From: Prevotella sp.
GTDB lineage: Bacteria; Bacteroidota; Bacteroidia; Bacteroidales; Bacteroidaceae
NCBI GenBank assembly: GCA_017402445.1
Contig: JAFPME010000016.1
Span: 1-42,400, forward strand
Length of the DNA stretch: 42,400 bases
Direction of reading: 5' to 3'
Shown: piece by piece, positions 12,179 to 37,722 of the stretch
Layout: the number at the start of each line of letters is the position of its first letter
Position numbering within the stretch: the first letter of the stretch is position 1
Notes under the pieces: model-generated
Told to the model about the DNA's origin: nothing
Seen by the model: the letters and a program-made list of their open reading frames with translations, nothing else
Databases searched by the model: none
Program-made: the position numbers and the translations under genes

Positions 12179-12554
12179 CGCTGAATGATGTTTACAAATT
12201 AACGTTTATTATACGAAATTACGGCTGGTTCTCCAAAATAAAAAGCAGACGGACGCGTACACGCGAATTATGAGAAAGCTATAAAGTGCTGGGAACACGC
12301 GACTTGCGTTTTCTTTACATTTTCCGAGCTTTCAGAATGATTCATTTTGCAAACGAAAACGGCCCATTCTGCACGACGGAATGATTCATTCCGCGCGGCA
12401 GAATGGGCCGTTTTGCGTTGTAAAATGAGCCATTTTGAAAAACGGAAAGAAAAAATTACTGGTTCTGTCCGATTCTTTTACCAAAAAAAGCGCTTCCGTC
12501 TTCGTAGAATGAAAAAAAATGTGTACCTGTTTTTTCGGTATGAAATGTTTACAA
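12179..12554 (+). repeat. Interspersed 22-bp-array element, copy A
   Basis: This is a conserved intergenic element of about 375 bp. Its core is five tandem 22-bp units starting at 12336, 12358, 12380, 12402 and 12424. Each unit has an 11-bp palindromic core (AATGATTCATT, AATGGGCCGTT and similar) and an 11-bp spacer beginning YTGC or TTGA. The left flank has ACGGACGCGTACACGCG and TTTTCTTTACATTTT; the right flank has CTGTCCGATTCTTTTACC and GTTTTTTCGGTATGAAAT. TGTTTACAA occurs at both 12189-12197 and 12546-12554. It lies between convergent genes. A 129-residue frame running through it is an artefact of the array. Copies B, C and D are elsewhere in the window. Confidence 0.85.
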
Positions 12555-12645
12555 TCACGGTGCGGATTTCAGATTCTTGGCGTCCGTTTCTTGACACAGT
12601 AAAAGCTCTTCAGGAAACAGGATCGGCGGCAACGGACATGCATCT

Positions 12646-13368
12646 TCATTTGAAGATGCGATGTTCAAACTTATCGAGTCGCTTCAAGGCAGCGGAGACC
12701 GTTGTCTCGACGGGCCATCCACGCAGTTCGGCATAGTGACTGATGAGGAAGGTGTAGAGGTCGCGTCGGTGAACCAGGCGCACCAAGTCCTTCATGCAAT
12801 CCTCGTCTGATGGCCAACCGTCGGTGAAGTGGGAACGATTGATGTCGATGAGCGTGAAATGATACTTGCCGTCGGGGCTCTTTTCGTAGAGGAAATTGGA
12901 GAGATTCAGGTCGCCGTGCAGGATGCCTTTGCTGTGCATGTAGACAATCTGCCGTACGACGGCTCTTGCCAGCTCGTGGTCGAAGTCCTTCACGTCTACC
13001 AGTTCCTGGAAGACTTCGCGCCTTGTCACCTCTTCGCTGACGAAGTAGCAGACGGTGAAGAGCCCCAGTTCGTAGCATTCGATGAATGCCACCTCGCGCG
13101 GAGTGCTGACGCCACGTTGTCGGTATAGTTCAGGAAAGCGGAAGGCACGCTCTCCTTTTGTTTTCCTGAAGAAGGTGTAGACAATCTGCTGAATGAAGTT
13201 CACCCGCTTGTAGCGCTTGGCGACAAAGACCAGCCCTTTGTGTTCGAAGCGCCTTATCTGGTTGCGCTTGTCGTAAATCACCTTTCCCTCGTCGCGTCTG
13301 AACAACGAAGGAATCGATTTGATGAACTGTTCAAAAGGCCGATATGTCTCAGCAATCACTGTCTTCAT
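12646..13368 (-). CDS. Kdo/lipopolysaccharide kinase-like protein
   Basis: This kinase-fold protein of the InaA/WaaP/KdkA type phosphorylates sugars in the LPS inner core in characterised relatives. The catalytic loop is HGDLNLSNFL (Asp about 153) and the metal-binding segment is TLIDINRSHF (Asp about 175); the N-terminal lobe has VIYDKRNQIRRF and VAKRYKR. I place the start at ATG 13368 (MKTVIAETYRPF, 240 aa), where relatives begin; an in-frame ATG at 13416 would add 16 residues. The gene is convergent with the DUF3108 gene, with element A between them, and lies 99 bases downstream of the M28 gene on the same strand. Confidence 0.82.
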   Translation of the reverse strand: MKTVIAETYRPFEQFIKSIPSLFRRDEGKVIYDKRNQIRRFEHKGLVFVAKRYKRVNFIQQIVYTFFRKTKGERAFRFPELYRQRGVSTPREVAFIECYELGLFTVCYFVSEEVTRREVFQELVDVKDFDHELARAVVRQIVYMHSKGILHGDLNLSNFLYEKSPDGKYHFTLIDINRSHFTDGWPSDEDCMKDLVRLVHRRDLYTFLISHYAELRGWPVETTVSAALKRLDKFEHRIFK

Positions 13369-13413
13369 GGCATTCTCTGTAAACAAATTGAAATCCAGGA
13401 TATCGGAAAGGTG

Positions 13414-13442
13414 CATTCCCCGGTCGTTTCCGACAGGGAATG
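13414..13442. other. Hairpin between M28 and kinase genes
   Basis: CATTCCC (13414-13420) pairs with GGGAATG (13436-13442), with an inner GTCG/CGAC stem. No T-run lies on either side, so it is not a typical terminator. It may protect or attenuate the transcript between the two minus-strand genes. Confidence 0.4.
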
Positions 13443-13467
13443 GTTCATGAGCCCGTCAGTCAGTGGG

Positions 13468-14466
13468 CTACTGTTCAGAATAAAGAACCTGAATGATGGT
13501 TTGTCCGACGGCAAGTAGGGTCTGCGCGTCGATGTGTTCCATGTCGTCCTTGACGGTGTGCCATGTCGGTCCGAACGTACTTTGCGCACAGTCGGGATAG
13601 TAGGAGATGATGTCGATGGTCGGAATCTTGGCTATTTCGTTCACAGGCAGGTGGTCGTCGGTGATCTGGGCACCGTCTTCGCGCGGAAAATAGCTGCCAA
13701 AGCCCACCGTTTCTGCTGCTGCCCACACCTTGTCGACGATGCTGGGTGCAAAGTGCATGGACACTTGCTCGCGATAGAAACGAGCTCCCTGGCCACCAAC
13801 CATGTCGAGCAGGATGCCGAAACGGGCACTGTAGTCGGCCGGTTGACGGTTGTTCGCCCAGTATTGCGCTCCTAAGGCCCATGAGTCGCCGCGGTCGGGG
13901 GCATCGCTCCACTGCGGAACGCCCCAGTCTTCAGCGTCGAAGCAGATGAAATCGACGCCTACGGCTGTCGAATCGCTCTGCTGCAGCTGGCGTGCCACTT
14001 CCAGCATGACAGCTATTCCGGAGGCTCCGTCGTTGGCTGCGATGACGGGTTTGCGCCAGTTTGCTTCGTCAGGGTCGTTGTCGGCCCACGGGCGGCTGTC
14101 CCAATGTGCGCAGATCAGGATGCGTGCAGGCCGTTCAGGCTTGTACTGGGCGATGATGTTTGAGCAGCGAAGGGGTGTCCCGTCGTAGCCTGTGAGCGTG
14201 ACGTCCTGCGTGGTCACGGAGCATCCGAACTCCTCGAACTTCTGTGCTATCCACTTGCCGCACTTGTCGTGCGCTTCGCTGTTCATCGTGCGTGGTCCAA
14301 AATCGCACTGAGTCTTGCAGAAAGCGAATGCACTGTCGGCACAGAAGGCCGGTCCTACGGGCAAGACCTTCACGGTTTCATCGTTTCTTGCAGCTTTGTT
14401 GCTCTTGCATGCTGTCAGCAGGTTCATGATGACGATGGCTGTCAATATGAGTGTCAGTTTTTTCAT
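13468..14466 (-). CDS. M28 family lipoprotein metallopeptidase
   Basis: The 332-residue protein has a lipoprotein signal (MKKLTLILTAIVIMNLLTAC, lipobox Cys20). The zinc-peptidase core shows HWDSRPWADN (His121), IAANDGASG (Asp146), FDAEDWG (Glu179, Asp180) and ITDDHLPVNEI (His272). The order and spacing resemble glutaminyl cyclotransferase-like members of M28 as well as aminopeptidases, so cyclisation of N-terminal Gln is a real alternative to exopeptidase activity. It lies 79 bases downstream of the C26-M19 fusion on the same strand. Confidence 0.87.
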   Translation of the reverse strand: MKKLTLILTAIVIMNLLTACKSNKAARNDETVKVLPVGPAFCADSAFAFCKTQCDFGPRTMNSEAHDKCGKWIAQKFEEFGCSVTTQDVTLTGYDGTPLRCSNIIAQYKPERPARILICAHWDSRPWADNDPDEANWRKPVIAANDGASGIAVMLEVARQLQQSDSTAVGVDFICFDAEDWGVPQWSDAPDRGDSWALGAQYWANNRQPADYSARFGILLDMVGGQGARFYREQVSMHFAPSIVDKVWAAAETVGFGSYFPREDGAQITDDHLPVNEIAKIPTIDIISYYPDCAQSTFGPTWHTVKDDMEHIDAQTLLAVGQTIIQVLYSEQ

Positions 14467-14545
14467 TCTTGATGTTTAACGTTTTTCAGATGGATATACG
14501 AGGAAAAAAGGAGTACTGCAGGCAGACTGGCAGGTGCATCACCCG

Positions 14546-16390
14546 TCAGTTTTTTACTGCCGACCGTTGTACTTGTCCCATCAGGCGGATCCAGTTGCCG
14601 CCCCAGATGCGCTCGATGTCGCGCTCGCTGTATTTGCGTCGCATCAGATGGAGCGTGAAGTTGATCAGCTCGGAGGCATCGGCCAGGCCGCGCACGCCGC
14701 CGTCACCGTCGAAGTCGGTGCCTAAGCCGACATGGTCTATGCCCATCAGCTCAATGGCATGCTCCAGATGGTTGAGTGCATCCATGACCGTGGCTTCGCC
14801 CGAAGCGCGGAGGAAGCCGCCGTAGAGCGTGATATGGCAAAGTCCGCCTCGTTGTGCGAGGGCCCGCAGCTGGTCGTCGGTGAGGTTGCGCGGATGGTCG
14901 CAGAGAGCTCGGCAGTTGCTGTGGCTGCACACGATGGGCGTCTGGCTGATGTCCAAAGCGTCGTAGAAGCTCTTTTCGGCAGCGTGGCTCAGGTCGACCA
15001 TGATGCCGTATTTGTTCATTTGCTCGATGACGCGCTCGCCGAACTGCGAAACGCCGTTGTGGGTGTTGCAGCCTTTGGCCGAGTCGCAGATGTCGTTGTC
15101 GCCGTTGTGGCACAGAGTGATGTAGACGACGCCGCGCTGTGCGAAGTGCTGTACGTTTTTCAGGTCGTGGTTCAGTGCCAGTCCGTTCTCGATGGCGAAC
15201 ATGATGCTTTTGCGCCCTTTGCGTTTGTCTTCGTAAAGGTCGGCAGGTGTGCGGGCAATACTGATGCTGCGGCTGTTTTGCTGCACGATGTCTTCAATCT
15301 TGTTGAAGATGAGGTCGGCATAGTCCATGGGACTGCTGACATTGAAGGAAACCTTCTGTGAGAACTGTTCTCCAATCTTTGGTTGCGGCAGATAGGCAGC
15401 CATGGTGACTGCGCTGAGGTGTCCCTCGGTCATTTTCTGCAGGTCCACCAGGATGCGTGGGTCGCGTTGGTTGAAGTGAATGCCCTGCGGGAAGAACATC
15501 GGCGTGTCGCAGTGGGTGTCGAGCGTCACGATTCGCTGGTGCAGATGCTTGGCAGTGGAGAAGTTGGTGGCCTGCCGGACGAGCCATTGGAATAGCGGCA
15601 GCCCGCTCTCTAAGCACTCGGGGTGCCACTGGACGCCCAGGATCGACTTGAACTCAGCACTCTCGATGGCTTCGATGACGCCGTCGGGAGCTGTTGCTGT
15701 TATGCGGAAGCGCTTGCCGCAGTCGCTGACAGCCTGATGGTGGAAGCTGTTGACGTAGATTTTCTCTTGTTTATAGATTTGGTAGAGCGTGGAGCCCGTT
15801 TGTATGTTCACGCTGTGAGTGAGCTCGCTGCGGCCTGCATCCTGCGAGTGCTTGATCATCGGGGCCAGCGACGGCGTCGGTTGGGTGTTGTTGCGGAGAC
15901 CGAAGATGCGGCGTTCCTTCGCTGTGGGCTGCCCGTCTTGCTGTTCGCGCGCCTCGTAGATGTCTTGAGCCACACGACCTCCGAGCGCTACGGCCAGTGT
16001 CTGTATGCCTCGGCAGATGCCCAGAATGGGAATCTGACGGTTGTAAGCCAGCCGTGTGATGAGCAGTTCGGGCAGGTCGCGCTCCTCGTTGATGCGGTGC
16101 AGCTGCGTGGATGGCTCGTCTCCGGTCCAGAGAGGGTTCAAGTCGGCACCGCCGCTGAGCAGCAGTCCGTCCAGCTGGTCAAGCGTGTTGGCGAGAACAT
16201 GGCGGTCGGCCACAGGTGGAATGACGACGGGCACGCCCCCGGCCTTTATCACCGAATCATAATAACGTTTGCTCAGTGTCGTTTCGCCGTCGTTGAAATT
16301 GCCTGTAATGCCTATCAGCGGCTGTTGGTCGGCTTCTGGAAAGTGAGCATAAATGTCGTCTAAATGCGACTGTAGGTTGAAGTTTTCCAT
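14546..16390 (-). CDS. C26 amidohydrolase fused to M19 dipeptidase
   Basis: This 614-residue two-domain protein has a class I glutamine-amidotransferase-like domain of the gamma-glutamyl-GABA hydrolase (C26) type at about 20-275, with nucleophile Cys126 in ILGICRGIQ and His256/Glu258 in VQWHPECLE. An M19 membrane (renal) dipeptidase-like domain spans about 285-610, with zinc ligands in THCDTP (His293, Asp295), then VDLSHAAEKSF, CSHSNCRALCDHPRNL and GLGTDFDGDGG. No signal peptide is seen, so it is probably cytoplasmic. Both domains look intact. Joint action on gamma-glutamyl peptides is an inference: C26 would hydrolyse the gamma bond and M19 the dipeptide. Confidence 0.87.
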   Translation of the reverse strand: MENFNLQSHLDDIYAHFPEADQQPLIGITGNFNDGETTLSKRYYDSVIKAGGVPVVIPPVADRHVLANTLDQLDGLLLSGGADLNPLWTGDEPSTQLHRINEERDLPELLITRLAYNRQIPILGICRGIQTLAVALGGRVAQDIYEAREQQDGQPTAKERRIFGLRNNTQPTPSLAPMIKHSQDAGRSELTHSVNIQTGSTLYQIYKQEKIYVNSFHHQAVSDCGKRFRITATAPDGVIEAIESAEFKSILGVQWHPECLESGLPLFQWLVRQATNFSTAKHLHQRIVTLDTHCDTPMFFPQGIHFNQRDPRILVDLQKMTEGHLSAVTMAAYLPQPKIGEQFSQKVSFNVSSPMDYADLIFNKIEDIVQQNSRSISIARTPADLYEDKRKGRKSIMFAIENGLALNHDLKNVQHFAQRGVVYITLCHNGDNDICDSAKGCNTHNGVSQFGERVIEQMNKYGIMVDLSHAAEKSFYDALDISQTPIVCSHSNCRALCDHPRNLTDDQLRALAQRGGLCHITLYGGFLRASGEATVMDALNHLEHAIELMGIDHVGLGTDFDGDGGVRGLADASELINFTLHLMRRKYSERDIERIWGGNWIRLMGQVQRSAVKN

Positions 16391-16510
16391 CGTTTTCTAT
16401 CGTGTGCTCTGTATTCTGTCTGTTCTGGTTTCGCTCAATGGATCAGCACTGCACGGAGATGCTGTCGAGCCGAGGTTTGTTGTCGGTGGACGGTGAATAC
16501 GAATCCCGCC

Positions 16511-16966
16511 CTATTCAACCGTAATCGGGATTTCGCGCTTCACGCTCTGTTCCAGTGAGATGAGGGTTTCGGTAGCCACCACTCCCGGAATGCCTTGCAG
16601 TTTGTTGTTCAGCAGGTCCATCAGCTGCTCGTTGTCGCGTGCATAGAGCTTGATGAGCATGGTGTAAGGGCCTGTCGTGAAGTGGCATTCCACAATCTCA
16701 GGTATGTGTTCCAGCCTCGCAACGACTTGTTTGTACATACTGCCCCGCTCCAGCGTAATGCCCACATAGGTGCATGTGGAGTAGCCCAGCGACTTGGGAT
16801 TGACGTCAAAGCCTGACCCTGTGATGACACCGTCTTCCATCAGGTGCTGCACACGCTGGTGAATGGCAGCTCTTGACACGTTGCATTCTGCTGCAACATC
16901 CTTGAACGGGATGCGTGCATTCTTCGAGAGTATGCTGAGAATCTTCTTGTCCAGGTTGTCTAACAT
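16511..16966 (-). CDS. Lrp/AsnC family transcriptional regulator
   Basis: The 151-residue protein has an N-terminal winged helix-turn-helix (LDNLDKKILSILSKNARIPFKDVAAECNVSR in outline, about 1-60) and a C-terminal RAM ligand-binding domain (TCTYVGITLERG onward, about 65-150). These feast/famine regulators bind amino acids, form octamers and usually autoregulate. Upstream are a -7 box (17015-17022), the palindrome TTGTATACAA at 16997-17006 in the leader, and a perfect 14-bp inverted repeat (17041-17089) overlapping the -33 region. The same palindrome lies at the same offset before the FKBP operon, so that operon may be a target. Confidence 0.92.
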   Translation of the reverse strand: MLDNLDKKILSILSKNARIPFKDVAAECNVSRAAIHQRVQHLMEDGVITGSGFDVNPKSLGYSTCTYVGITLERGSMYKQVVARLEHIPEIVECHFTTGPYTMLIKLYARDNEQLMDLLNNKLQGIPGVVATETLISLEQSVKREIPITVE

Positions 16967-16996
16967 AATTGTTCTTTTTGCTGTTCAAATAATAAG

Positions 16997-17006
16997 TTGT
17001 ATACAA
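16997..17006. promoter_or_regulatory. Palindrome TTGTATACAA in lrp leader
   Basis: This perfect 10-bp palindrome begins 8 bases downstream of the lrp -7 box, at or just after the predicted start site. An identical palindrome with identical 8-base spacing lies before the first FKBP gene (19632-19641). Confidence 0.55.
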
Positions 17007-17014
17007 TTTGATAG

Positions 17015-17022
17015 CAAAAATA
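17015..17022 (-). promoter_or_regulatory. -7 box for Lrp gene
   Basis: TATTTTTG on the minus strand matches TAnnTTTG and gives a leader of about 40 bases. The -33 region would fall inside the inverted repeat at 17041-17054. Confidence 0.5.
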
Positions 17023-17040
17023 GTCATTTCTTGTGATATG

Positions 17041-17089: not shown

Positions 17090-17107
17090 AAGTGTAGAGG
17101 TTTCGCG

Positions 17108-18049
17108 TTATTTTTTAGACGCAACCTTCATTGGTTTCATTTCACCTGGCAAGACAGGAGAGTATTGAATCTTCTTCTCTGATTCTTTTTGGGGAGTTAC
17201 TTTCAGTACTTCGAGCGTGAAGACAAGCGGGCTGTAAGGAGGGATTGGGCCTGTTTTCCTTGAGCCGTAGGCCAGTTCGTAGGGGATGTAGAGCTCCCAA
17301 AGGCTGCCCTCGGGCATCATTGTCAGTGCCTCGCTCCAACCTTTGATGAGCCTGCTGGGCTGGAAGGTTGCGCTCTTGTTGGGTTGTTTGTCAGATGTGT
17401 CGAACACGGTTCCGTCCGTCAGACGGCCTTCATATTTTACTTCCACCTCATCCGTAGCTTTGGCAATCGGTCCATTGCCCTTGCGGATCACCTTGTACTG
17501 CAGGCCGGAAGCTGTTACTTGCACTCCTTCCTTTGCCTTGTTCTGTTCCATGAATGCTTTAGCAGTCTCTTTCCTTTGCTTCTCTGTGGCTTTGCGGCTT
17601 TCCTGAATAAGCTTGTCAGCCTGCTGCCTGCCCATGCGGAGAGTGTCGTTCTTCATACCTGCTTCGAAGCCGCTCAGGAAGAGTTGATAGTCGAGTTGCT
17701 CGGTCAGTTCGTCATCGATGAGCTTGAAGTTGTTTTCTTTCAGACGCTGTGGAAACGACAGGCCAAGGCTGTAGGCTATCATTTCGTCGGAGCTGTCCTT
17801 GGAAAGTGCCTCGCTGAAACCGCGGTAGAAGGCGGCAATCTTCGCTTCGTCGCCCTGGAACTGGTTCTTCAGGAACGCGTCGAAGCCGAACGTGGCATTC
17901 AGGCCTGCAGCGTAGCTGAGCGAATCGCTTGGCGTCTTCATGGCAGCAGTTGCAGTTTTTTTTGCCTTTTTGTCCTTTGGACCAGCTGAGGCTGAAATGA
18001 AAGAGGCACCCACCGCGAGGGTGAGTGCCATGATGATGATTCTTTTCAT
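17108..18049 (-). CDS. Periplasmic FKBP-type peptidyl-prolyl isomerase
   Basis: The 313-residue protein has a signal peptide (MKRIIIMALTLAVGASFISASAG) without a lipobox Cys, predicting a soluble periplasmic protein. A Mip/FkpA-like helical dimerisation domain (about 40-180, with LSYAAGLNATFGF) precedes an FKBP domain (about 185-290) showing VEVKYEGRLTDGTVFDTS and LWELYIPYELAYG. The C-terminus adds about 25 Lys-rich residues. It is the last of three adjacent FKBP genes, 4 bases after the second. Confidence 0.92.
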   Translation of the reverse strand: MKRIIIMALTLAVGASFISASAGPKDKKAKKTATAAMKTPSDSLSYAAGLNATFGFDAFLKNQFQGDEAKIAAFYRGFSEALSKDSSDEMIAYSLGLSFPQRLKENNFKLIDDELTEQLDYQLFLSGFEAGMKNDTLRMGRQQADKLIQESRKATEKQRKETAKAFMEQNKAKEGVQVTASGLQYKVIRKGNGPIAKATDEVEVKYEGRLTDGTVFDTSDKQPNKSATFQPSRLIKGWSEALTMMPEGSLWELYIPYELAYGSRKTGPIPPYSPLVFTLEVLKVTPQKESEKKIQYSPVLPGEMKPMKVASKK

Positions 18050-18053
18050 ACCG

Positions 18054-18956
18054 TTATTTCTCGATGCCCAGAAGCTTGATGGTGAAAATCAAAGTGGAGT
18101 AAGGCTCGATGCCAGAGCTTCCGTTCTCGCCATAGGCCAGTTCCTGTGGAATGACAACTTCCCACTCGCTGCCGACCGGCATGTGGAGCAGGGCCTCGGT
18201 GAAACCAGGTACCAGCTGGGTGACCTGCATCACGACGGGCTGCTTGCGCTGGATAGAGCTGTCGAACACTTTGCCGTCGATGTTCTTGCCCTCATAGTCG
18301 AACTTCACTTTCGAGTTGGCGGTGGGAACAGCACCGGTTCCTGCCTTCACTACCTTGTAGTAGATGTCACCCTTGAAGTGCTCTTTGCGCATAGAGTCGA
18401 CGCGGTCGACGCTGATTTTCTGGATGCCTTCTTTCTTGGCATATTCTGCTATGTACTTCTTGCCGGCCTCCATGTTCTTCATGAACTGCTTAGCACGGAT
18501 GCTGGTGCTCAGGCTCTCGCTCATCTGCTGTGCCTGTTCGGTGGTGAAGAGTGCCTTCTCGCCGCCCAGAGCGGTCAGCAGACCTGCCACGAAGTTCTTC
18601 GTAGACAGTGTTTTTGTGCTGTCAGTACCGAACACCTGACGGTTCATACCGGGAATCATTCCCTGGCTGATTTGCTGTCCAATCTGCAGTCCGGCGAAGT
18701 ATGCGGACTTCTTCTTGTCGTCACCGGCGTTCACACCTTCATTCAGACCTTTCACGAAGTCGTTGAGATAAGTGGAATCGATGCCCAGTGCTTGTGTCAG
18801 ATAGCCCTTCAACTGCTGAGACTGTGCCACACCCATTGTGTAGCTGAGGGTGTCAACGTCGCTCTTCAGCTCTGCCTTGGGTGCCGAAGAGTTACCGCAT
18901 GATGTGAATGTTGCGGCTGCAATAGCCATAGCGGCTACAAATGTGATTTTTTTCAT
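18054..18956 (-). CDS. Lipoprotein FKBP-type peptidyl-prolyl isomerase
   Basis: The 300-residue protein has a lipoprotein signal (MKKITFVAAMAIAAATFTSC, Cys20). A helical FKBP N-terminal domain (about 30-200) includes LSYTMGVAQSQQLKGYL, and the FKBP domain (about 205-298) includes VKFDYEGKNIDGKVFDSS and WEVVIPQELAYGENGSSGIEPYSTLIF. It is the middle gene of the FKBP triplet, 46 bases after the first and 4 before the third. Confidence 0.93.
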   Translation of the reverse strand: MKKITFVAAMAIAAATFTSCGNSSAPKAELKSDVDTLSYTMGVAQSQQLKGYLTQALGIDSTYLNDFVKGLNEGVNAGDDKKKSAYFAGLQIGQQISQGMIPGMNRQVFGTDSTKTLSTKNFVAGLLTALGGEKALFTTEQAQQMSESLSTSIRAKQFMKNMEAGKKYIAEYAKKEGIQKISVDRVDSMRKEHFKGDIYYKVVKAGTGAVPTANSKVKFDYEGKNIDGKVFDSSIQRKQPVVMQVTQLVPGFTEALLHMPVGSEWEVVIPQELAYGENGSSGIEPYSTLIFTIKLLGIEK

Positions 18957-19002
18957 TTTTTTCTTCTTTTATTGTCTGTGATTCTCTTTGTTCTTTCTTT
19001 TT

Positions 19003-19608
19003 TTAAACCACTGCGAGCAGTTCCACATCGAAGATCAATGCTGCGTAGGGAGGTATGCTGTTGCCTGCTCCACTCGGGCCGTAGGCCAGCAGGTAGGGAA
19101 TGAAGAAGCGGTACTTGGCACCTTCCTTCATCAGCTGAAGGCCTTCTGTCCAGCCGGCAATCACTTGCTGCAGGCCGAATGTGGCAGGTTCGCCGCGCTG
19201 TACGCTGCTGTCGAATACAGTGCCGTCAATGAGAAAACCTTCATAGTGACAGCGGACACTGTCCGTGGCTTTAGGCTGTCGGCCCGTACCTTCGCGCAGT
19301 ACCGTATACTGAAGGCCGCTCTTAGTTACCTTCACTCCTTCTTTTTTCGCATTCTCTGCCAGGAATTTCTCGCCCTCTACTTTTGCTTTCTTACCTTTCT
19401 CTTCGCGCTCGGCGTTCAGCTTTTTTTCCTGTTTCTGGAAGTATTCCTGTACTATCTGCTGAGCTTCGCGGTGTCCCACCTTCAGCTCTGCTCCTGCTAA
19501 CACGTCGCGGATAGCTTCTGCAAAGTCGTCAATGTTCAGGCCTTCGATGTTCATCTGTGCCAATTGCTGGCCGATGCCGAGACCCAAACCATAACTAAGT
19601 TTATCCAT
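19003..19608 (-). CDS. Cytoplasmic FKBP-type peptidyl-prolyl isomerase
   Basis: The 201-residue protein begins MDKLSYGLGLGIGQQLAQMN with no signal peptide, so it is predicted cytoplasmic. A short helical Mip-like N-domain with a charged helix (QKQEKKLNAEREEKGKKAK) precedes an FKBP domain (about 105-200) with VRCHYEGFLIDGTVFDSS and YRFFIPYLLAYGPSGAG. It is first in the three-gene operon, behind a -7 box at 19650-19657 and the palindrome TTGTATACAA at 19632-19641. Confidence 0.92.
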   Translation of the reverse strand: MDKLSYGLGLGIGQQLAQMNIEGLNIDDFAEAIRDVLAGAELKVGHREAQQIVQEYFQKQEKKLNAEREEKGKKAKVEGEKFLAENAKKEGVKVTKSGLQYTVLREGTGRQPKATDSVRCHYEGFLIDGTVFDSSVQRGEPATFGLQQVIAGWTEGLQLMKEGAKYRFFIPYLLAYGPSGAGNSIPPYAALIFDVELLAVV

Positions 19609-19865: not shown

Positions 19866-20241
19866 CGCTGAATTATGCTTACAAAATAACATTTATTATA
19901 CGAAATTACGGCGGGTTTTCCAAAATAAAAAGCCGACGGACGCGTATGCGCGAAATATGAGAAAGTTCTAAAGCACTGGGAAAAAGCGACTTGTGTTTTC
20001 TTTACATTTTTCGGGCTTTCAAAATGACTCATTCTGCACGCGAAAAAGGCTCGTTTTGCTCGACAGAATGAATCATTCTGCGCGGCAGAACGGGCCATTT
20101 TGCCGCGTAAAATGGGCCATTTTGAAAAACGGAAAGAAAAATCTTCTGGTTTTGTCCGATTCTTTTATCAAAACAAGCGCTTCCGTCTTCGTAGAATGAA
20201 AGAAAATCTTTACCCGTTTTTTCGGTATGAAATATTTACAA
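19866..20241 (+). repeat. Interspersed 22-bp-array element, copy B
   Basis: The closest relative of copy A and exactly the same length. The five 22-bp units start at 20023, 20045, 20067, 20089 and 20111, with cores such as AATGACTCATT, AATGAATCATT and AATGGGCCATT. Flanks match copy A over long runs, for example TTTATTATACGAAATTACGG on the left and AAGCGCTTCCGTCTTCGTAG on the right. TGCTTACAA and TATTTACAA occupy the places of the end repeats of copy A. The element points opposite to the neighbouring minus-strand genes and lies upstream of the FKBP operon. Confidence 0.85.
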
Positions 20242-20488
20242 AGCATCATACGTGTCTATTCAAAATCTTAGTCATAGCTATATGGTTTGAAAGATTGGCT
20301 TTGCCTTTGCCTTTGCCTTTCCCCGTAGGCGGCGATTTTCAATTCCCTACGGCCGCCGATTTTCAATGCTTCGACGAGCAAAGCGAGTGGAACTCGATTA
20401 CATGCGGAGCAACTCTTTATATCGAACTCACGTTCGCTTATGATACCTTCACTTTTGATTTCTGCCTAATTTGATCTCGTCGGACAAT
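20242..20488. other. Gap between element B and secDF terminator
   Basis: No gene is supported. The gap holds three TTTGCC units (20300-20317), a direct repeat of CGATTTTCAAT at 20333 and 20357, and a dyad whose right arm contains TCGAACTCACGTT (about 20422-20434). That word is also in the inverted repeat near the start of the window. Confidence 0.45.
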
Positions 20489-28578: not shown

Positions 28579-29034
28579 TCATTCTTCGCTACTCCAGTCA
28601 ACAACTTCTCGCAATATGTTCATGTCTTTATCAAGCAGCACGCATTCGTTCGTTTCTTCTATGTATCCGTAGCGTTCGCCTTGCAGCATGGTGTTGCCAA
28701 AGTTAATCAGCAGTCCTATTGGCTGTTTTGTCAGGCGCATATAGTTAAAGAGTTGTGCCCTGTGAGCAGGAACGATCGACTGTACTGATTTCAGTTCAAC
28801 GATTATATTTTCCACATACATGTCAATCTTGTATCTCTTCTTCAGCAAATGCTTCTTGTAGAAGCAGGAAACCAGTGCTTCAGGCTCGAAACTCAGGTGC
28901 CGTTCCGATAGTTCTATCTGCATGGCTTCGTTGTATACGGCTTCCAGTAGCCCCCATTTCAGCTCGGAATGAACCTTCATAGCCGCACCGATCACCTGAT
29001 AGACATCGTCTTTATACCTTTTGAAGCGGTTCAT
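28579..29034 (-). CDS. GxxExxY family protein
   Basis: The 151-residue protein has the family motif GLLEAVY at about 28-34 and a PD-(D/E)XK-like core (IDMYVENIIVELKSVQ, about 71-86). The C-terminal part reads RAQLFNYMRLTKQPIGLLINFG. The fold suggests a nuclease-related origin, but the function is unknown. It sits between kduD and kduI and breaks up that pair. Short tandem repeats lie on both sides in inverted orientation; on the upstream side one unit overlaps the start codon. This looks like an inserted cassette. Confidence 0.85.
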   Translation of the reverse strand: MNRFKRYKDDVYQVIGAAMKVHSELKWGLLEAVYNEAMQIELSERHLSFEPEALVSCFYKKHLLKKRYKIDMYVENIIVELKSVQSIVPAHRAQLFNYMRLTKQPIGLLINFGNTMLQGERYGYIEETNECVLLDKDMNILREVVDWSSEE

Positions 29035-30699: not shown

Positions 30700-31078
30700 C
30701 CCTTTCAAAAAAAATTACCAAAAAATCCTGCACAGATTTTTCTTCATTTTAGAAAGCCGATTCGTTCTTTTGAGGTAAAAAAACCGAACAAAACCACAAG
30801 AAAAATCATCCCGTTTTTCAGAATGGGCCATTCTGCGTCGCAAAACGGGCCATTCTGCTCGTCAAAATGAATCATTCTGCGCGTCGAAAAGGCCCGTTTT
30901 GAAGCGCAAAATGAGCCGTTTTGAACGCCCGAAAAATGTAAAGAAAATACAAGTGCTTTGTTTCCAGCGTTTTAAAACTCTCTCATATTTCGCGTGTACG
31001 CGTCCGTCGGATTTTTATTTCAGAACGATGGCACTCTCAGAAGGGTTTTTCCGACTTTTTGTCCGCTTTTTTCACAGC
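30700..31078 (-). repeat. Interspersed 22-bp-array element, copy C (inverted)
   Basis: In plus coordinates the five units start at 30822, 30844, 30866, 30888 and 30910 (cores AATGGGCCATT, AACGGGCCATT, AATGAATCATT, AAAGGCCCGTT, AATGAGCCGTT). Read on the minus strand, its flanks match copy A (CCGACGGACGCGTACACGCG and TTTTCTTTACATTTTTCGGG). Its outer left end instead matches copy D (GGAAAAACCCTTCTGAGA). The right boundary, near 30700, is approximate. It lies between a minus-strand small gene and the divergent M16 gene. Confidence 0.82.
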
Positions 31079-31322: not shown

Positions 31323-34175
31323 ATGAAAGCAAAAAGATTCTTCGTCGCCGCCGTGCTGGCACTCCTCAGCACCGTGGCCGTGGTGGCTCAGGACATGCAG
31401 ATGCCACCCATTCCCATTGACGATCAGGTGCGCATCGGCAAACTTGACAACGGACTGACGTACTACATCCGCCACAACGAGTACCCGGAGCACGTGGCTA
31501 ACTTCTACATCGCACAGCGCGTGGGCTCCATTCAGGAGGAGGAAAACCAGCGCGGACTGGCCCACTTCCTCGAGCACATGGCCTTCAACGGCTCTGAGCA
31601 CTTCCCCGGCAACGGCATCATCGACTTCACACGCTCGCTCGGCGTGGAGTTCGGCAGTGACCTGAATGCCTACACCAGCATCGACCAGACCGTCTACCGC
31701 GTGTGCAACGTGCCCACGAAGCGCGCTACGGCCGTCGACTCCTGCCTGCTCATCCTGAAGGACTGGTCGAACGGGCTGCTGCTCGAAGAAGACGAAATCG
31801 TCAAGGAGCGAGACGTCGTGCACAACGAGTGGCGCATGGGCGAGGGACCGCAGCAGCGCATGCAGACACGCTGCCTTCCGAAGATGTACCCCGGCTCGAA
31901 ATACGGCGAGCGACTGCCCATCGGACTGATGTCCGTCGTGGATAACTTCAAGCGTCAGGAGCTGGCCGACTATTATAAGAAGTGGTACCGCCCGGACAAC
32001 CAGGCCATCATCGTCGTGGGCGACGTAGATGTGGACCACATCGAGGCCGAGGTGAAGCGCCTCTTCGGCGGCATCAAGGTGCCTGCCAACGCCGCCAAGG
32101 TGGTGGCCGAGCCTGTTCCCGACAACAACGAGGCCATCTACATCTTCGACAAGGACCGCGAGATGCCCGTCAACCAGCTGGTTGTCATGATGAAGCACGA
32201 CGCAACACCCGACAACGAGAAGACGTCCATGGCCTATCTGCTGCAGGACTATGTCGTCGACGTGGCGTCGAACATGCTCAACGCGCGCCTCTCCGAGATG
32301 ACGCAGGAGGCTGAATGCCCCTTCGTGCAGGCCTTCGCCGCCGACGGCAACTACCTGCTCTCGAAGACCAAGGACTGCTTCGAGCTGATCGGCATCCCCA
32401 AGGAGGGCAAGGACATGGAGACGCTCGCCGCCCTCATCCGTGAGGCCAAGCGCGCACGCGACTTCGGATTCACCGCCACCGAGTACGAACGCGCCAAGAG
32501 CGACTATCTGGCAAACCTCGAGAAGCGCTACACCAACCGCGACAAGCGCCGCAACGACGAGTACGGCAATGCCTATCGCGACCACTATCTCTCGAACGAA
32601 CCCATCCCGTCGCTCGAATATCTCTACCAGACCATGAACCAAATCGTGCCCATGTTGCCCGTCGAGATTGTCAACCAGGCACTGCCTGAGTTCATCTGCG
32701 AGAGCGACACCAACCTCGTGGTGTGGGAAATGGGGCGCGAAGCCGACGGCCTGACCTATCCGACAGAGGCTCAGATGGCCGAGACGGTGAAGAAAACGCG
32801 CGCCGAGAAGCTCGAAGCCTACGTGGACAACGTGAAGGACGAGCCGCTCATGCTCCCCGAGAACATGCCCAAGAAGGGCTCCATCGTGAAGGAGACCGAG
32901 AACAAGCAGCTCGGCTACAAGGAGCTGACACTCTCCAACGGCGCCACCGTGGTGCTGAAGAAGACCGACTTCAAGGACGACGAGGTGCAGCTGCAGGCCT
33001 TCGCCAAGGGCGGCAGCTGCCTCTACGGACCGAAAGACTACAACAACCTGAAGCTGTTCGACGAAATCATCGGCTACAGCGGCATCGGAAACTTCTCTTC
33101 CAACGAGCTCCAGAAGGCTCTTGCCGGCAAGAACTGCAACGCCGATGCTACGCTGAGCGTCACCCGTCAGCATGTCACCGCGCACTCTACACCGAAGGAC
33201 TTGGAGACCATGTTCCAGATGATGTACTACTATTTCACCGCCGTCAAGAAGGATGAGAAGCAGGTGCAGAACCTCATGTCGCAGTTGGAGCTTGCGCTGA
33301 AGAACAAAAACCTGCAGCCCGCAGCCGTCTTCCAGGACTCGCTCGCCAACACCATGTACTGCCACAATCCGCGATTCGCAAACATTCAGGCCGCCGACCT
33401 GAAGGACATCAGCTACGACCGCATCCTCGAAATCCATAAGGATCGCTTCAAGAACGCCGCTCTGTTCACCTTCGTCATCGTGGGTAACTTCGATGAGGCC
33501 ACCATCCGCCCCCTGCTTGAGCAGTATGTCGCTTCGCTCCCAGCCGACAAGAAGGCCAAGGCCGATGAGCCGAAGAACGTGCTCACCATGTTCAAGGGCA
33601 AGGTGAAGAACAACTTCACGGTGAAGACCGACTCGCCCAACGCCATCTCCTACCTCGTGTGGAACGCGCAGATGCCCTACACGCTGGAGAACAGCGTCAA
33701 GGCCAGCGCCGTCGGACAGATTCTTTCGCAGGTTTACCTCGCCACCATCCGCGAGCAGGAGAGTGCTGCCTACACATGCGGCTCGGCCGGATCGTTCGAC
33801 TTCAGGGGCATTCAGCCCATGGTACGTCTCCTCGCCGTCAGTCAGGGCAATCCCGAAAAGAACGCCCGCGCCGTGGAACTGCTCTACAAGGGCTTCAACG
33901 ACAACATGGCTAAGATGGATGCCGACGCTATGCAGAAAGTGAAGGAGTACATGCTGAAGCAGGCTGACGTTGATGCGAAGTCCAACAGCCACTGGATGAA
34001 CGTGCTCACCACATGGAAGGACTTCGGCGTTGACCTGCAGACCGACTACAAGAAGGTCGTCGAGAGCCTCACTGCCGACAGCCTGCAGAAGTTCATGAAG
34101 CAGGTTGCTGCCGCCAACAACCAGCTCGAAGTCATCATGATGACCGAACCGAAGGACGACAAGAAGGCTGAGTAA
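31323..34175 (+). CDS. Secreted M16 (pitrilysin) family zinc protease
   Basis: This 950-residue protein has a signal peptide (MKAKRFFVAAVLALLSTVAVVAQ). The inverted zinc motif HFLEH is at about 81-85 (His81, Glu84, His85), with the downstream ligand Glu in ERDVVHNEWR. M16 enzymes form a clamshell of two homologous halves; the second half (about 520-945) has the usual degenerate site. The protein is predicted periplasmic and may degrade imported peptides. Start 31323 is chosen from the signal peptide and the promoter. Long open frames on the opposite strand are codon-bias shadows. A terminator follows at 34207. Confidence 0.93.
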   Translation: MKAKRFFVAAVLALLSTVAVVAQDMQMPPIPIDDQVRIGKLDNGLTYYIRHNEYPEHVANFYIAQRVGSIQEEENQRGLAHFLEHMAFNGSEHFPGNGIIDFTRSLGVEFGSDLNAYTSIDQTVYRVCNVPTKRATAVDSCLLILKDWSNGLLLEEDEIVKERDVVHNEWRMGEGPQQRMQTRCLPKMYPGSKYGERLPIGLMSVVDNFKRQELADYYKKWYRPDNQAIIVVGDVDVDHIEAEVKRLFGGIKVPANAAKVVAEPVPDNNEAIYIFDKDREMPVNQLVVMMKHDATPDNEKTSMAYLLQDYVVDVASNMLNARLSEMTQEAECPFVQAFAADGNYLLSKTKDCFELIGIPKEGKDMETLAALIREAKRARDFGFTATEYERAKSDYLANLEKRYTNRDKRRNDEYGNAYRDHYLSNEPIPSLEYLYQTMNQIVPMLPVEIVNQALPEFICESDTNLVVWEMGREADGLTYPTEAQMAETVKKTRAEKLEAYVDNVKDEPLMLPENMPKKGSIVKETENKQLGYKELTLSNGATVVLKKTDFKDDEVQLQAFAKGGSCLYGPKDYNNLKLFDEIIGYSGIGNFSSNELQKALAGKNCNADATLSVTRQHVTAHSTPKDLETMFQMMYYYFTAVKKDEKQVQNLMSQLELALKNKNLQPAAVFQDSLANTMYCHNPRFANIQAADLKDISYDRILEIHKDRFKNAALFTFVIVGNFDEATIRPLLEQYVASLPADKKAKADEPKNVLTMFKGKVKNNFTVKTDSPNAISYLVWNAQMPYTLENSVKASAVGQILSQVYLATIREQESAAYTCGSAGSFDFRGIQPMVRLLAVSQGNPEKNARAVELLYKGFNDNMAKMDADAMQKVKEYMLKQADVDAKSNSHWMNVLTTWKDFGVDLQTDYKKVVESLTADSLQKFMKQVAAANNQLEVIMMTEPKDDKKAE

Positions 34176-34206
34176 CCGCTTCATTGCCTTTTTTTGATAA
34201 ACAGAG

Positions 34207-34239
34207 AGGGAGAATGTGCCGCGCACATCCTCCCTTTTT
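34207..34239 (+). terminator. Terminator of M16 protease gene
   Basis: AGGGAGAATGTGC (34207-34219) pairs with GCACATCCTCCCT (34223-34235), one mismatch, followed by a T-run at 34235-34239. Confidence 0.82.
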
Positions 34240-34249
34240 CGATTGTTGC

Positions 34250-34359
34250 CCGATGGTGTTTCGGTTGCAGTCCGATGGTGTTTCTGCAGCTGTACGATGG
34301 TGTTTCGGTAGCAGTCCGATGGCATTCCGGCAGCTGTTCAGTAGCGTTTCTGTTCTTCA
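34250..34359. repeat. Five-unit 22-bp tandem array
   Basis: Units start at 34250, 34272, 34294, 34316 and 34338. The first three share CGATGGTGTTTC, and units alternate between endings such as GGTTGCAGT and TGCAGCTGT; the fourth and fifth are degraded. The sequence is unrelated to the core of elements A-D, but the period (22) and unit number (five) are the same. It lies between the M16 terminator and the porin promoter. Confidence 0.75.
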
Positions 34360-34440
34360 TGCAGCACGGTTGCGGGGCAAGACAGGTACACTGCCTTTCC
34401 ACAAAAATACATACAATAGCTAAAGAAAATGGCAAAAAAC

Positions 34441-34471
34441 TTTGCAAATTGTAATATTTCAATTATCTTTG
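34441..34471 (+). promoter_or_regulatory. Complete Bacteroidota promoter for porin
   Basis: TTTG at 34441-34444 and TATCTTTG at 34464-34471 are separated by 19 bases, the same arrangement as the HU promoter. The leader is about 58 bases. Confidence 0.8.
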
Positions 34472-34535
34472 CCGACAATTTGAAAGAAGAACGGTAAAAA
34501 GAAAAACAGAATAACAGTAAAACCAAAGAAAAAAC

Positions 34536-35615
34536 ATGAGAAAACAACATCTGAAAACGGCCTTGCTCGCCGTGGCATTGGCTGCCCTGAGCAGCAGCGC
34601 CGCCATGGGACAACAGGAAACCGACTGGATGAAGGATCTCTCCAGCCGCATCACACTCAACGGCTATGCACAAGGGGGCTGGGCCTATCAGGACCCCAAC
34701 GGCACAAAAACGAACGCCTACAACCTGAAGCGCACCTTGCTATGGGCGAAGGCACGCATCACTGACAGATGGTCATTCCTTTTCATGCACGACTTCTCGA
34801 GCGTCGTGCAGGAATTCTATACTGACTACAGGGTGACAAAAGGGAAGGAACTGAGCGTCCGACTCGGACAGTTCAAGCACAGCTACACGATGGAAAACCC
34901 CTTGTCGCCCACAATGCTCGAGCTCATCGACGTCTATTCACAAGCCGTCCTCTACCTTGCTGGCGAAGGACCCGACCCACTCAACGGCGTGAACTACGGC
35001 CGCGACATGGGATTGATGGTCTATGGCGACCTGCTCGACGACCATCTGCACTACGAACTGGCGCTGATGAGCGGCCAGGGCATCAACCGCAAGGACCTGA
35101 ACAACCAGAAAGACTTCATAGCCAAGCTGGAAGTGAAGCCCGCCGACGGCTTCCGTGTGGTGGCTTCCGGCTATTTAGGCAAAGGCAACGCCGTGGGTAC
35201 GGCCGCCTGGAACCCCGACATACAAGTGGGCGACAACTATCGGCGCAACCGTTACAGCGTGGGTGCCGAATACAAGACGCGCCCTTACACCGGCTCGAAG
35301 TACAAAGAGGCGCGCCCAGCCAGCGTCCGTGCCGAGTGGCTTGGCGGTGAAGACGGCAGCGTAGGGTCGCGCGGCGGATATGCCACGTTCTGCATCCCCG
35401 TTGTCGACGCCCTCGACGTCGTGGCCAGCGGCGAGACCTTCGACCGCAACACGTCCGTCGACGGATGGGACCAGACCAATCTGACCTTGGGTCTGCAGTA
35501 TTGGTTCTACAAGAAATGTCGTCTTCAGCTGCAGTACACCCGCTGTCTCTGCGGTGAAAACATCAGCCAGAAGGACTACAACTGGCTGCAGGCACAGGTG
35601 CAGGTGGCGTTTTGA
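34536..35615 (+). CDS. Outer-membrane porin (phosphate-selective porin-like)
   Basis: The 359-residue protein has a signal peptide (MRKQHLKTALLAVALAALSSSAAMGQ). The mature part is rich in alternating beta-strand patterns, with ITLNGYAQGGWAY, LSVRLGQFKHSYTMENPLSP and YGRDMGLMVYGDLLDDHLHYEL, typical of OprO/OprP-like porins of Bacteroidota, and ends in QAQVQVAF with the terminal Phe expected for barrel insertion. The transported solute cannot be assigned. The sodium symporter gene lies 196 bases downstream, past a 21-bp tandem array. Confidence 0.87.
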   Translation: MRKQHLKTALLAVALAALSSSAAMGQQETDWMKDLSSRITLNGYAQGGWAYQDPNGTKTNAYNLKRTLLWAKARITDRWSFLFMHDFSSVVQEFYTDYRVTKGKELSVRLGQFKHSYTMENPLSPTMLELIDVYSQAVLYLAGEGPDPLNGVNYGRDMGLMVYGDLLDDHLHYELALMSGQGINRKDLNNQKDFIAKLEVKPADGFRVVASGYLGKGNAVGTAAWNPDIQVGDNYRRNRYSVGAEYKTRPYTGSKYKEARPASVRAEWLGGEDGSVGSRGGYATFCIPVVDALDVVASGETFDRNTSVDGWDQTNLTLGLQYWFYKKCRLQLQYTRCLCGENISQKDYNWLQAQVQVAF

Positions 35616-35644
35616 GGCGGCCTGCGGCTGGCGGCCTGCGGCCT

Positions 35645-35791
35645 AAATGATAAATGATAAATGACAAATGATAAATGATGATTGTCAAATGAGAGATGAC
35701 AAGTGTCAAATGAGAGATGACAAGTGTCGAATGTGAGGTGACAAGTGTCAAATGAGAGGTGATAATTGTCGAATGATAAATGATAAACGGA
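35645..35791. repeat. 21-bp tandem array, about seven units
   Basis: Units start at 35645, 35666, 35687, 35708, 35729, 35750 and 35771. The third and fourth are identical (AAATGAGAGATGACAAGTGT plus C) and the others differ by a few bases; the first and last are AT-rich variants based on AAATGATAA. The array fills the gap between the porin and symporter genes. A GC-rich 13-base direct repeat (GGCGGCCTGCGGC at 35616 and 35630) precedes it. Confidence 0.8.
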
Positions 35792-35811
35792 AAGTGATAT
35801 AATCGATCATT

Positions 35812-37335
35812 ATGTTTATAAAGATTCTACTTACCATTGTTTTTGTGGCTGTCATGATTGCCGTGGGGCTCTATTCCAGAAAACAGGCAGCCAGTGTGGA
35901 CGGATTTGTGCTCGGCGGACGCGCCGTAGGCCCTTGGCTGACGGCGTTCGCCTACGGCACCAGTTATTTCTCCGCTGTGGTCTTCGTGGGCTATGCGGGC
36001 CAGTTTGGATGGAAATACGGGTTGTCGTCGACATGGATCGGCGTGGGCAACGCCGTCATCGGCTCACTGCTGGCCTGGCTCGTGCTGGGTCGCCGCACCA
36101 AACTGATGACGCAGCACATCGAGAGCCGCACCATGCCCGACTTCTTCGGCACGCGCTACCAGAGCCAGGGGCTGCGCGTAGCGGCCAGCATCATCGCCTT
36201 CGTGTTCCTCATCCCCTACACGGCAGGCGTCTACAAGGGCATCTCCACCCTGTTCGAGATGGGGTTCGGCGTTCCTTACGAGTATTGCGTCATCATCATG
36301 GCCATCCTGACGGCTGTCTACGTCATCCTCGGCGGCTACAAGGCCACGGCTATGAACGACTTCATACAGGGCATCATCATGCTCTTCGGCATCGTCACCG
36401 TCATCGCGGCCGTGCTTTCGGCGCAGGGCGGACTCACCGCTGCCGTTGAGAAGATGGCCAGTCTGCCCGCCGACACGCCCCCGGGAACGACCGAGAACGG
36501 CGGCTTTGCCACGCTGTGGGGCCCCGATCCGTGGAACCTGCTGGGCGTGGTCGTGCTGACGTCGCTCGGCACGTGGGGCCTGCCCCAGATGGTCGGCAAG
36601 TTCTATAGCATCACCGACGAGAGCGCCATCCGCCGCGGAACCATCATATCGACTGTCTTTGCCTTCATCGTGGCGGGCGGATGCTACTTCCTCGGAGGCT
36701 TCGGCCGACTGTTCGGCACGCCGCCGACGCTCCCCAACGGCCGTCTGGACTTCGACTCCATCGTGCCGTCGATGCTGGCCTCGCTGCCCGACTTCATCAT
36801 TGCCCTGGTCGTGTTGCTGGTGCTCTCGGCATCGATGTCGACGCTGGCCTCGCTGGTGCTCACCTCTTCGTCCACGATGACGCTCGACCTGATCTACCGC
36901 GACAAGAAGTCGCTGCCGGGCGAAGTGGAGGAGGGATCCATCGACGACGTGGTGGCCGAGCGCGTGGAGCGCCGCAAGGTGGTGGTCATGCGCGTGCTCA
37001 TTGTCTTCTTCATCGCCATCTCGTTGCTCATCGCCCTCAACCCGCCGACGTTCATCGCGCAGCTCATGGGCATCTCGTGGGGCGCCCTGGCCGGTGCTTT
37101 CCTGGCACCGTTCATGCTCGGTCTCTACTGGCGCGGCGTGACGACGGCTTCGGTGTGGGCCTGCTTCGTGTGGGGCGTGGGCCTGACGGTGGTCAACATG
37201 CTGCTGGGCAACCCCATCAATCCCATCAACTGCGGTGCCATCGCCATGGTGGGCGGTTTCGTGGTCGTGTGGTTGGTCAGCCTGCTGACGCCGAAGATGC
37301 GTAGCGAGGACGTCGAGCGCATGTTCGCTTGGTGA
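35812..37335 (+). CDS. Sodium:solute symporter family transporter
   Basis: This 507-residue inner-membrane protein of the SSS/SLC5 family has about 13 predicted helices. Family features include SVDGFVLGGRAVGPWLTAFAYG near the N-terminus (about 30-50), YVILGGYKATAMNDFIQGIIM (about 165-185) and GTWGLPQMVGKFYSI (about 245-260). The substrate is not evident; family members carry sugars, amino acids, acetate or iodide. A TATAAT-like sequence lies in the last 25 bases before the start. Confidence 0.9.
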   Translation: MFIKILLTIVFVAVMIAVGLYSRKQAASVDGFVLGGRAVGPWLTAFAYGTSYFSAVVFVGYAGQFGWKYGLSSTWIGVGNAVIGSLLAWLVLGRRTKLMTQHIESRTMPDFFGTRYQSQGLRVAASIIAFVFLIPYTAGVYKGISTLFEMGFGVPYEYCVIIMAILTAVYVILGGYKATAMNDFIQGIIMLFGIVTVIAAVLSAQGGLTAAVEKMASLPADTPPGTTENGGFATLWGPDPWNLLGVVVLTSLGTWGLPQMVGKFYSITDESAIRRGTIISTVFAFIVAGGCYFLGGFGRLFGTPPTLPNGRLDFDSIVPSMLASLPDFIIALVVLLVLSASMSTLASLVLTSSSTMTLDLIYRDKKSLPGEVEEGSIDDVVAERVERRKVVVMRVLIVFFIAISLLIALNPPTFIAQLMGISWGALAGAFLAPFMLGLYWRGVTTASVWACFVWGVGLTVVNMLLGNPINPINCGAIAMVGGFVVVWLVSLLTPKMRSEDVERMFAW

Positions 37336-37348
37336 CCGTTCTGTGCAT

Positions 37349-37722
37349 GCTGAAAATAGTGTACAAAAAGTTGGAAAAACCCTTCTGAGAATCGATAATT
37401 CTGAAACAGAAGTGCCGACGCTCGCAAATACGCGAATTTTGAACTTTTCCTAAATCGTTGATACATAGCCGTCTGCGTTTTCTTTACAAAAAGACGAGCT
37501 TTCAAAATGATTCATTTTACGTTTGAAAATGGCCCATTCTGCTCGTCAGAATGGGCCATTCTGTTGAAGAAAACGGGCCGTTTTACATCGCAAAACGGCC
37601 CGTTTTGAAAAACCGGACGGTTTTTTCTGCACTTTTGTCAGGTTCTTTTACGGTTTCAAGAGCTCTCATTGTTCTGCAACAGAAAAATGATTCACATCGT
37701 CTTTCTGGTATTTTTCTTGACA
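37349..37722 (+). repeat. Interspersed 22-bp-array element, copy D
   Basis: Units start at 37506, 37528, 37550, 37572 and 37594. All five cores are perfect 11-bp palindromes (AATGATTCATT, AATGGCCCATT, AATGGGCCATT, AACGGGCCGTT, AACGGCCCGTT), with matched changes in both arms. The left end (GGAAAAACCCTTCTGAGA) matches copy C, and GACGAGCTTTCAAAATGATTC-type sequence leads into the array as in A and B. The flanks are more diverged than in A/B, and the right boundary is approximate. It lies between the symporter gene and metK. Confidence 0.8.

Follow-up and report, generated by a model that had tools for sequence, protein, structure and literature searches.

What are the intergenic elements of about 378 bp that occur four times, as copies A to D, in a 42,400-nucleotide stretch of Prevotella sp. 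DNA (contig JAFPME010000016.1; hereafter, the window)? The window is the whole of contig C35 of a draft genome (G000, here called the own genome) that comprises 1,866,360 bases in 44 contigs and is 50.7% complete. The original prediction had offered four candidates, namely, a nonautonomous mobile element, a repetitive extragenic palindromic (REP)-like family, a nucleoid protein-binding array, and a structured small RNA. The protein-binding array was the best supported of the four, the REP-like and RNA proposals failed, and the mobile element was the main rival. Our preferred reading, held at a little short of even confidence, is that the elements are cooperative protein-binding arrays that punctuate the chromosome. 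It is based on a layout of five units at 22-bp steps, dyads that are conserved over their spacers, half-sites that vary independently, an intergenic location without strand preference, an even spacing of about 15 kb, the mutual avoidance of arrays with unrelated motifs, and a shift of the motif between species.

Anatomy of the element and its array

All four copies were present, with borders within a few bases of those predicted and with scores of 223 to 315 bits, beyond chance, against a sequence profile of 383 positions (R1). The features are as follows.

12180..12558, plus strand: element A (subfamily 1), in a convergent gap; R1 profile, 293.9 bits
12334..12436, plus strand: five-dyad 22-bp array of element A
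19867..20243, plus strand: element B (subfamily 1), in a tandem gap; R1, 314.8 bits
20021..20123, plus strand: five-dyad 22-bp array of element B
30702..31076, minus strand: element C (subfamily 2), in a tandem gap; R1, 305.8 bits
30820..30922, minus strand: five-dyad 22-bp array of element C
37348..37724, plus strand: element D (diverged), in the tandem gap between a sodium/solute symporter gene and metK; R1, 223.4 bits
37504..37606, plus strand: five-dyad 22-bp array of element D

Elements A and B, thought to be equal in length to the base, showed 87% identity in an alignment that was free of insertions and deletions apart from the final bases. C and D were more diverged and had outer flanks other than those of A and B, the best long match of D in the own genome reaching 71%. 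Of the left-flank words believed to be shared, ACGGACGCGTACACGCG was exact in A and C only and TTTTCTTTACATTTT was exact in A, B, and C, with D differing at both, and the two right-flank words assigned to all copies were found in A and B only. The count of exactly five units spaced at 22 bp was true for each of the four elements.

The unit consists of a 15-bp dyad, ARAAYGRNYCRTTYT, plus a 7-bp spacer. Its regularity was followed in 66 distinct copies, retrieved as loci from the own genome by BLAST with A, C, and D as queries (40 candidates scored each; locus L033 was dropped, as it marks the same place as L030). When 22-bp steps were forced, five dyads fitted all 66 copies, with at least 48 of the 60 constrained positions. 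A stricter, unforced pattern found all five at 22 bp in 49 copies, the rest missing one or two, at multiples of 22; with this pattern, no other step and no sixth unit in register were found among the 66. Mean pairwise identity was 0.83 in the dyads (0.98 at the AA, G, C, and TT positions), 0.58 in the spacers, and 0.66 and 0.61 in the flanks; in terms of purines and pyrimidines, pairwise identity within the dyads was 0.96. The fact that copies as diverged as these (mean identity among own copies, 0.67) keep all five dyads recognizable suggests that every copy is under constraint.

The two halves of the dyad varied independently. Among 330 units, Watson-Crick pairs at positions 2 and 14 numbered 213, compared with 218 expected, those at positions 5 and 11 numbered 194, compared with 205 expected, and A.C mismatches were about as common as G.T. 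A paired RNA or single-stranded DNA hairpin would give an excess of pairs; thus, the independent half-sites point to sites in duplex DNA, and a hairpin of either kind was rejected, there being no base-pair covariation. With a step of 22 bp, successive dyads would lie two turns apart and on roughly the same side of the helix. Neither terminal inverted repeats (TIR; best TIR-like identity, 0.53 over 14 bp) nor an evident target-site duplication was found in the 66 copies, and a miniature inverted-repeat transposable element (MITE) was rejected on this ground.

Distribution along the chromosome

The high copy number that had been suspected was confirmed, since at least 80 copies of about 378 bp each were found in this half-complete genome, and the elements therefore occur outside the window too. 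R1 retrieved 78 copies at full length; 2 others, on C39 and C12, are cut by contig ends, and their placement there rests on the cut-off matches of the profile model. The number is a lower bound, 150 of 516 candidates having been scored, and further copies are possible. Full copies scored 182 to 323 bits, and antisense self-matches scored up to 102 bits. Because only the contig-end copy of C39 scored between the two, the scored own-genome matches included no decayed or truncated copy, contig-end ones aside. By eye, the left end of A and B (subfamily 1) was recognized in about 27 of the 66 copies, and many subfamily 1 copies share some 65 to 75 bp further upstream together with varying downstream pieces. 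An element lies no more than about 1 kb from a contig end on own contigs C3, C5, C12, C17, C18, C25, C26, C27, C29, C33, and C39. Short-read assemblies may break at the elements, and some arrays of a sister species (G240) are gaps of N.

All 55 copies with readable neighbors were intergenic, 22 of them in convergent, 22 in tandem (11 in each orientation), and 11 in divergent gaps; the neighbors of the 11 others were unreadable. The window itself, to which all three gap types had been assigned, contains one convergent (A) and three tandem (B, C, and D) gaps and no divergent one. The elements occur in both orientations, as had been described, with A, B, and D on the plus strand, C on the minus strand, and 39 plus and 41 minus copies genome-wide. 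They are also noncoding: no copy read looks protein coding, although in 8 of the 55 a chance-like frame of at least 70 codons runs across the element.

Elements recur about every 15 kb in the own genome. Their spacing was analyzed on 27 contigs of known length, with 77 copies and 50 neighbor gaps (3 copies on contigs of unknown length were omitted). No gap was below 6.6 kb, compared with 16.3 expected at random placement, whereas 30 gaps measured 10 to 18 kb, compared with 11.0 expected. The 6.6-kb limit was derived from the data, and the minimum gap itself (6,647 bp) was tested too. The coefficient of variation (CV) of the gaps was 0.57, compared with 0.95 at random, and the observed values were reached in 0 of 20,000 simulations. 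A null model confined to intergenic gaps on six contigs gave a P value of 5e-5, with 18 of 28 elements in called gaps and the others overlapped by called frames of at least 90 codons. The nonrandom, even distribution expected of a nucleoid or chromosome-organizing array was thus present in the own genome.

Other 22-bp array families were found in the own genome, in stretches chosen mostly for the absence of the first family (F1). Twenty such stretches gave 16 peaks at period 22, compared with 0 to 6 at twelve other periods. The second family (F2), GCAATTTCASTGAAATTGC, has four units and was counted in 12 arrays, one of them a variant (C15 7.9k) and another added by eye (C29 79.97k); the third (F3), TGACCANGNCNTGGTCA, was counted in 2. 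Eight 22-bp peaks that were weak, nonpalindromic, or beside another array were dropped from this count (C15 53.2k and 103.0k; C24 75.0k; C27 35.4k and 39.5k; C29 80.06k; C30 52.9k; and C35 34.25k). The scan totaled 803 kb, including seven contigs or long parts of contigs from end to end. About 66% of this sequence is within 9.9 kb of an F1 element, yet none of the 14 F2 and F3 arrays came closer to one than 9,858 bp (P of ∼3e-7); thus, arrays whose motifs are unrelated stay apart. Taken together, the three families gave 57 gaps with a mean of 16.4 kb and a CV of 0.36. The F2 arrays lie on own contigs C15, C24, C40, C10, C30, and C29. F2-like units were also seen in genome G366 (CAATTTCACTGAATTTG, locus L221) and in P. 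koreensis (CAATTTCGCCGAAATTG, L302), so the F2 motif may be older than F1.

Three further features of the window were recorded. Three FKBP-type peptidyl-prolyl isomerase genes stand in tandem at 17108-19608, adjoining element B, and a 21-bp tandem array (AAATGAGAGATGACAAGTGTC and variants) occupies 35645-35812, immediately before the sodium/solute symporter gene. At 34229-34338, four 22-bp direct repeats (CCGATGGTGTTTCGG...GCAGT) overlap the start of a 1013-amino-acid frame in a divergent gap; they are not clearly palindromic, and no relation to the five-dyad element was shown.

A sister species and other Prevotella genomes

In the sister species G240, R1 gave 36 full-length matches plus 4 cut by contig ends or N gaps. 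Five 22-bp units fitted all 33 copies in a count that omitted L180 (an N gap), L123 (an own-type copy), and L186 (altered units); L180 was kept, misaligned, in the comparison of identities. The half-sites were those of the own genome, and the center of the motif was shifted. Thus, GGC/GCC formed the center of 158 of 330 own units and of 9 of 165 in G240, where CGT/ACG formed 59 of 165, and CG stood at the center of 62 of 165 units in G240 compared with 2 of 330 in the own genome. The shift was seen at orthologous sites as well: at L037/L157 and L059/L162 (both flanks matching in each), at L026/L159 (one flank matching), and at L078, which matches two neighboring G240 copies, one on each side. 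Avoidance of GGCC under restriction was ruled out as its cause, with an observed/expected ratio for GGCC of 1.08 in the G240 loci.

Element identity was 0.67 and 0.68 within the two genomes and 0.60 between them. L037/L157 and L074/L185 were reciprocal best matches, whereas L059/L162 (ranks 10 and 32) and L026/L159 (13 and 26) were not. An element stands upstream of metK in both species, in opposite orientations and with low identity. Synteny was broken in G240 at the sites of B and C; the counterpart of the B site, matched by one flank, carries a four-unit 22-bp array of another motif, GCAAAACAAATTNNATTGC-like (L208). By score, L123 (315 bits, with own-type centers) stood far above the other G240 copies. 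Thus, some copies are inherited, others are gained, lost, or replaced, and copies change in concert.

Across the genus, R1 matched 148 of 398 genomes, the own one included (E value of 1e-3 or better; 3 candidates scored each). BLAST of element A at the DNA level gave 0 matches in 39 relatives, which were reached by the profile only. Period 22 was the best among periods 16 to 28 in 26 of the 28 R1 loci read, with units that differ (for example, CAAAACGGTGCGTTTTG, TCAGAAAGGCTTTCTGA, and CAAATACACTGTATTTG); since these loci were picked for their resemblance to R1, the period was partly selected for, and only 11 of the 28 reached a dyad score of at least 4. In 199 kb of the one-contig genome G366, there are 9 arrays of AAAAGTTGAACTTTT, with four full units plus a half, and G210 carries 10 arrays of AAACGGNCCGTTT; peaks at period 22 numbered 11 and 15, respectively, and those at other periods numbered 0 to 4. 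Spacing was even in G366 (CV, P = 0.001) and on chromosome 1 of G100 (CV, P = 0.0009), seven arrays of other motifs in G100 being omitted from the test. The surroundings of tnaA in 80 genomes, mostly from uncultured Bacteroidales, contained seven palindromic 22-bp arrays, including those of P. falsenii, P. aurantiaca, and P. koreensis; around these 80 loci, period 18 was commoner than period 22 (17 compared with 9).

Genome G100, in two contigs (1,965,935 and 708,235 bp), probably belongs to the P. intermedia group; its TnaA shares 98% identity with the TnaA proteins of P. falsenii and P. aurantiaca. Two 199-kb stretches of it contain 26 and 25 arrays, one of them about 300 bp downstream of tnaA, and all 36 elements found by their end pattern measure 186 bp, run from TGTAAA to TTTACA, and hold five 22-bp units. 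A second 22-bp family, TTTACACGTAAATAA, was seen beside the PINSR-like arrays (see below) on its contig C1 near 1496225, 1529683, 1626209, and 1635887.

PINSR of P. intermedia has been described as a noncoding intergenic repeat of 188 bp, with 177 and 184 copies, no TIR, and no known function (Naito et al., PMC4755523). It is lineage specific, about three-quarters of its regions are common to strains, it is absent from most strain-specific mobile regions, and it is reported downstream of tnaA; the consulted part of that account mentions no 22-bp array, palindromes, spacing, or counterparts with other motifs (PMC4755523). Beyond that paper, PINSR was not found with Prevotella in the literature searched, nor was any description of such arrays or their spacing. 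The G100 elements, compared by length, tnaA position, and two-replicon host rather than letter by letter, appear to be PINSR, although PINSR is reported without TIR and the density in G100 would give about 340 arrays per genome, if even, compared with some 180 published. The window element is likewise intergenic, noncoding, of high copy number, and devoid of TIR; it differs in its length of about 378 bp, its motif, and its longer flanks. PINSR probably has the same design. The element matched no insertion sequence and no RNA family, but its layout is probably that of a repeat already described.

Function of the arrays and alternative explanations

In the reading that we prefer, each element would be a noncoding DNA site built around a lattice of dyad-symmetric putative binding sites, five here and four in other families, and a dimeric DNA-binding protein would occupy each array cooperatively. 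The different motifs would be served by a few proteins, either related or successive. The arrays would act as punctuation of the whole chromosome, anchors or boundaries of stretches of about 15 kb, rather than as operators of single genes, and copies would be gained and lost while each genome keeps one motif, presumably tracking the specificity of the protein.

Several observations weigh against a protein-binding lattice. In G210 and on chromosome 2 of G100, the CV was not significant (P of 0.42 and 0.11, respectively) and only the minimum gap was (P of 0.015 and 0.003); array density also differs between species, being about one per 7 kb in G100. Stretches from 20 further genomes, 17 without an R1 match and 3 with a weak one, yielded few clear arrays, with 9 peaks at period 22 and 6 at period 21 (7 stretches were shorter than 5 kb); among the 10 R1-negative genomes that gave a full 20-kb stretch, a clear palindromic array was seen in few. 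Two of the dropped peaks, both nonpalindromic, lie less than 9.8 kb from F1 (C24 75.0k and C35 34.25k), and an array by itself does not account for the long conserved flanks. No protein that would bind the arrays was identified. ParB_N had one match in 13 of 16 genomes and one in the own genome, where, half complete as it is, no extra ParB or Noc protein was found; HU-HIG proteins, with 2 to 30 matches per genome, were discarded, as their counts do not follow the arrays. Decay does occur, as indicated by two G240 loci: L191 (C39, ∼28660-28830) is an arrayless remnant in which pieces of the left and right flanks are joined without the five units, and L186 is a full-length match with altered units. 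Finally, element A is absent at its G240 site, where the matched flanks are 240 bp apart compared with 499 bp; the gap sequences align poorly, so that an empty site with a precise joint is not definable, and no target-site duplication was seen. Together with the abundance of subfamily 1 in the own genome, this absence also fits mobility.

The chief competitor, which we consider a substantial possibility though less probable than a lattice, is accordingly a nonautonomous mobile element, in which a recombinase would use the array as a binding lattice and local target immunity, known for Tn7 and Mu, would space the copies. The missing copy of A, the subfamily 1 left end in about 27 of 66 own copies while G240 has the single outlier L123, the opposed and dissimilar elements upstream of metK, and the remnant and altered copies of G240 all favor it. 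However, it does not sit well with the lack of TIR and target-site duplications, with the lack of truncated copies among the scored own-genome matches, or with the five dyads still recognizable in diverged copies, and exclusion across unrelated motifs is unexplained by it unless the machinery is shared. No match was obtained when element A was compared by BLAST with plasmid and phage records or when viral contigs were searched for a 32-letter word of its subfamily. It is improbable that the arrays are operators through which a global transcription regulator controls adjacent genes: other 22-bp arrays do lie upstream of gene starts in G240 (L192, L195, and L208, by eye), but 22 of 55 own copies occupy convergent gaps and 11 occupy divergent ones, and even spacing would not be expected of operators.

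Explanations based on hairpins fared worse. A structured small RNA with five hairpins is very unlikely; the palindromes could fold, as the listed inverted repeats indicate, but the half-sites are independent with A.C about as frequent as G.T, the window has no Rfam match at the gathering score, and there is no strand preference. Still less credible are REP or REPIN-like hairpins moved by a RAYT transposase, which would account for abundant, species-specific intergenic palindromes. Compensatory changes are common in REPINs, which are distributed randomly in extragenic space (PMC3116915). The present elements differ in pairing, placement, and linkage to RAYT: no compensatory pairing was found over 330 units, and a search for the Y1_Tnp domain gave nothing in 7 of the 9 array-bearing genomes, some of which are incomplete (one partial match in the own genome and two matches in G210). 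On these grounds, absent covariation and scarce Y1_Tnp, REP/RAYT was rejected. Iteron centromeres and the ParB and Noc site sets provide precedents for arrays of regular binding sites and for dispersed chromosomal palindromes; here, in contrast, there are multidyad lattices with motif turnover and, in the own genome, no second ParB_N gene was found. Among repeats of the Bacteroidales, the BrickBuilt MITE of Porphyromonas gingivalis also places an intergenic tandem array, of 23-nucleotide repeats, between a leader and a tail, in 19 copies; it has been described with a variable repeat number, insertion sequence-like TIR, and partial forms (PMC4596501), whereas the window element has five units, lacks TIR, is evenly spaced, and was not seen in truncated form in the own genome.

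A broader proposal is more doubtful. The chromosomes of many Prevotella species may be divided into stretches of about 7 to 20 kb by intergenic two-turn arrays of four to five dyads, belonging to interchangeable motif families that keep apart from one another, with a fast-evolving DNA-binding protein driving species-wide motif turnover at 100 sites or more; such arrays would be a bacterial counterpart of rapidly evolving centromere or insulator DNA.

PINSR has so far been a lineage-specific oddity without a function, and it now becomes a probable member of a broader class within the genus, one in which the geometry is conserved, the genomic spacing is even, and the motif differs between species. 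This opens the question of whether a protein sets topological domains, segregation, or local supercoiling in the Bacteroidota through such arrays. Motif turnover at tens to hundreds of sites per genome would offer an uncommon opportunity to follow a bacterial protein and its sites as they change in step.

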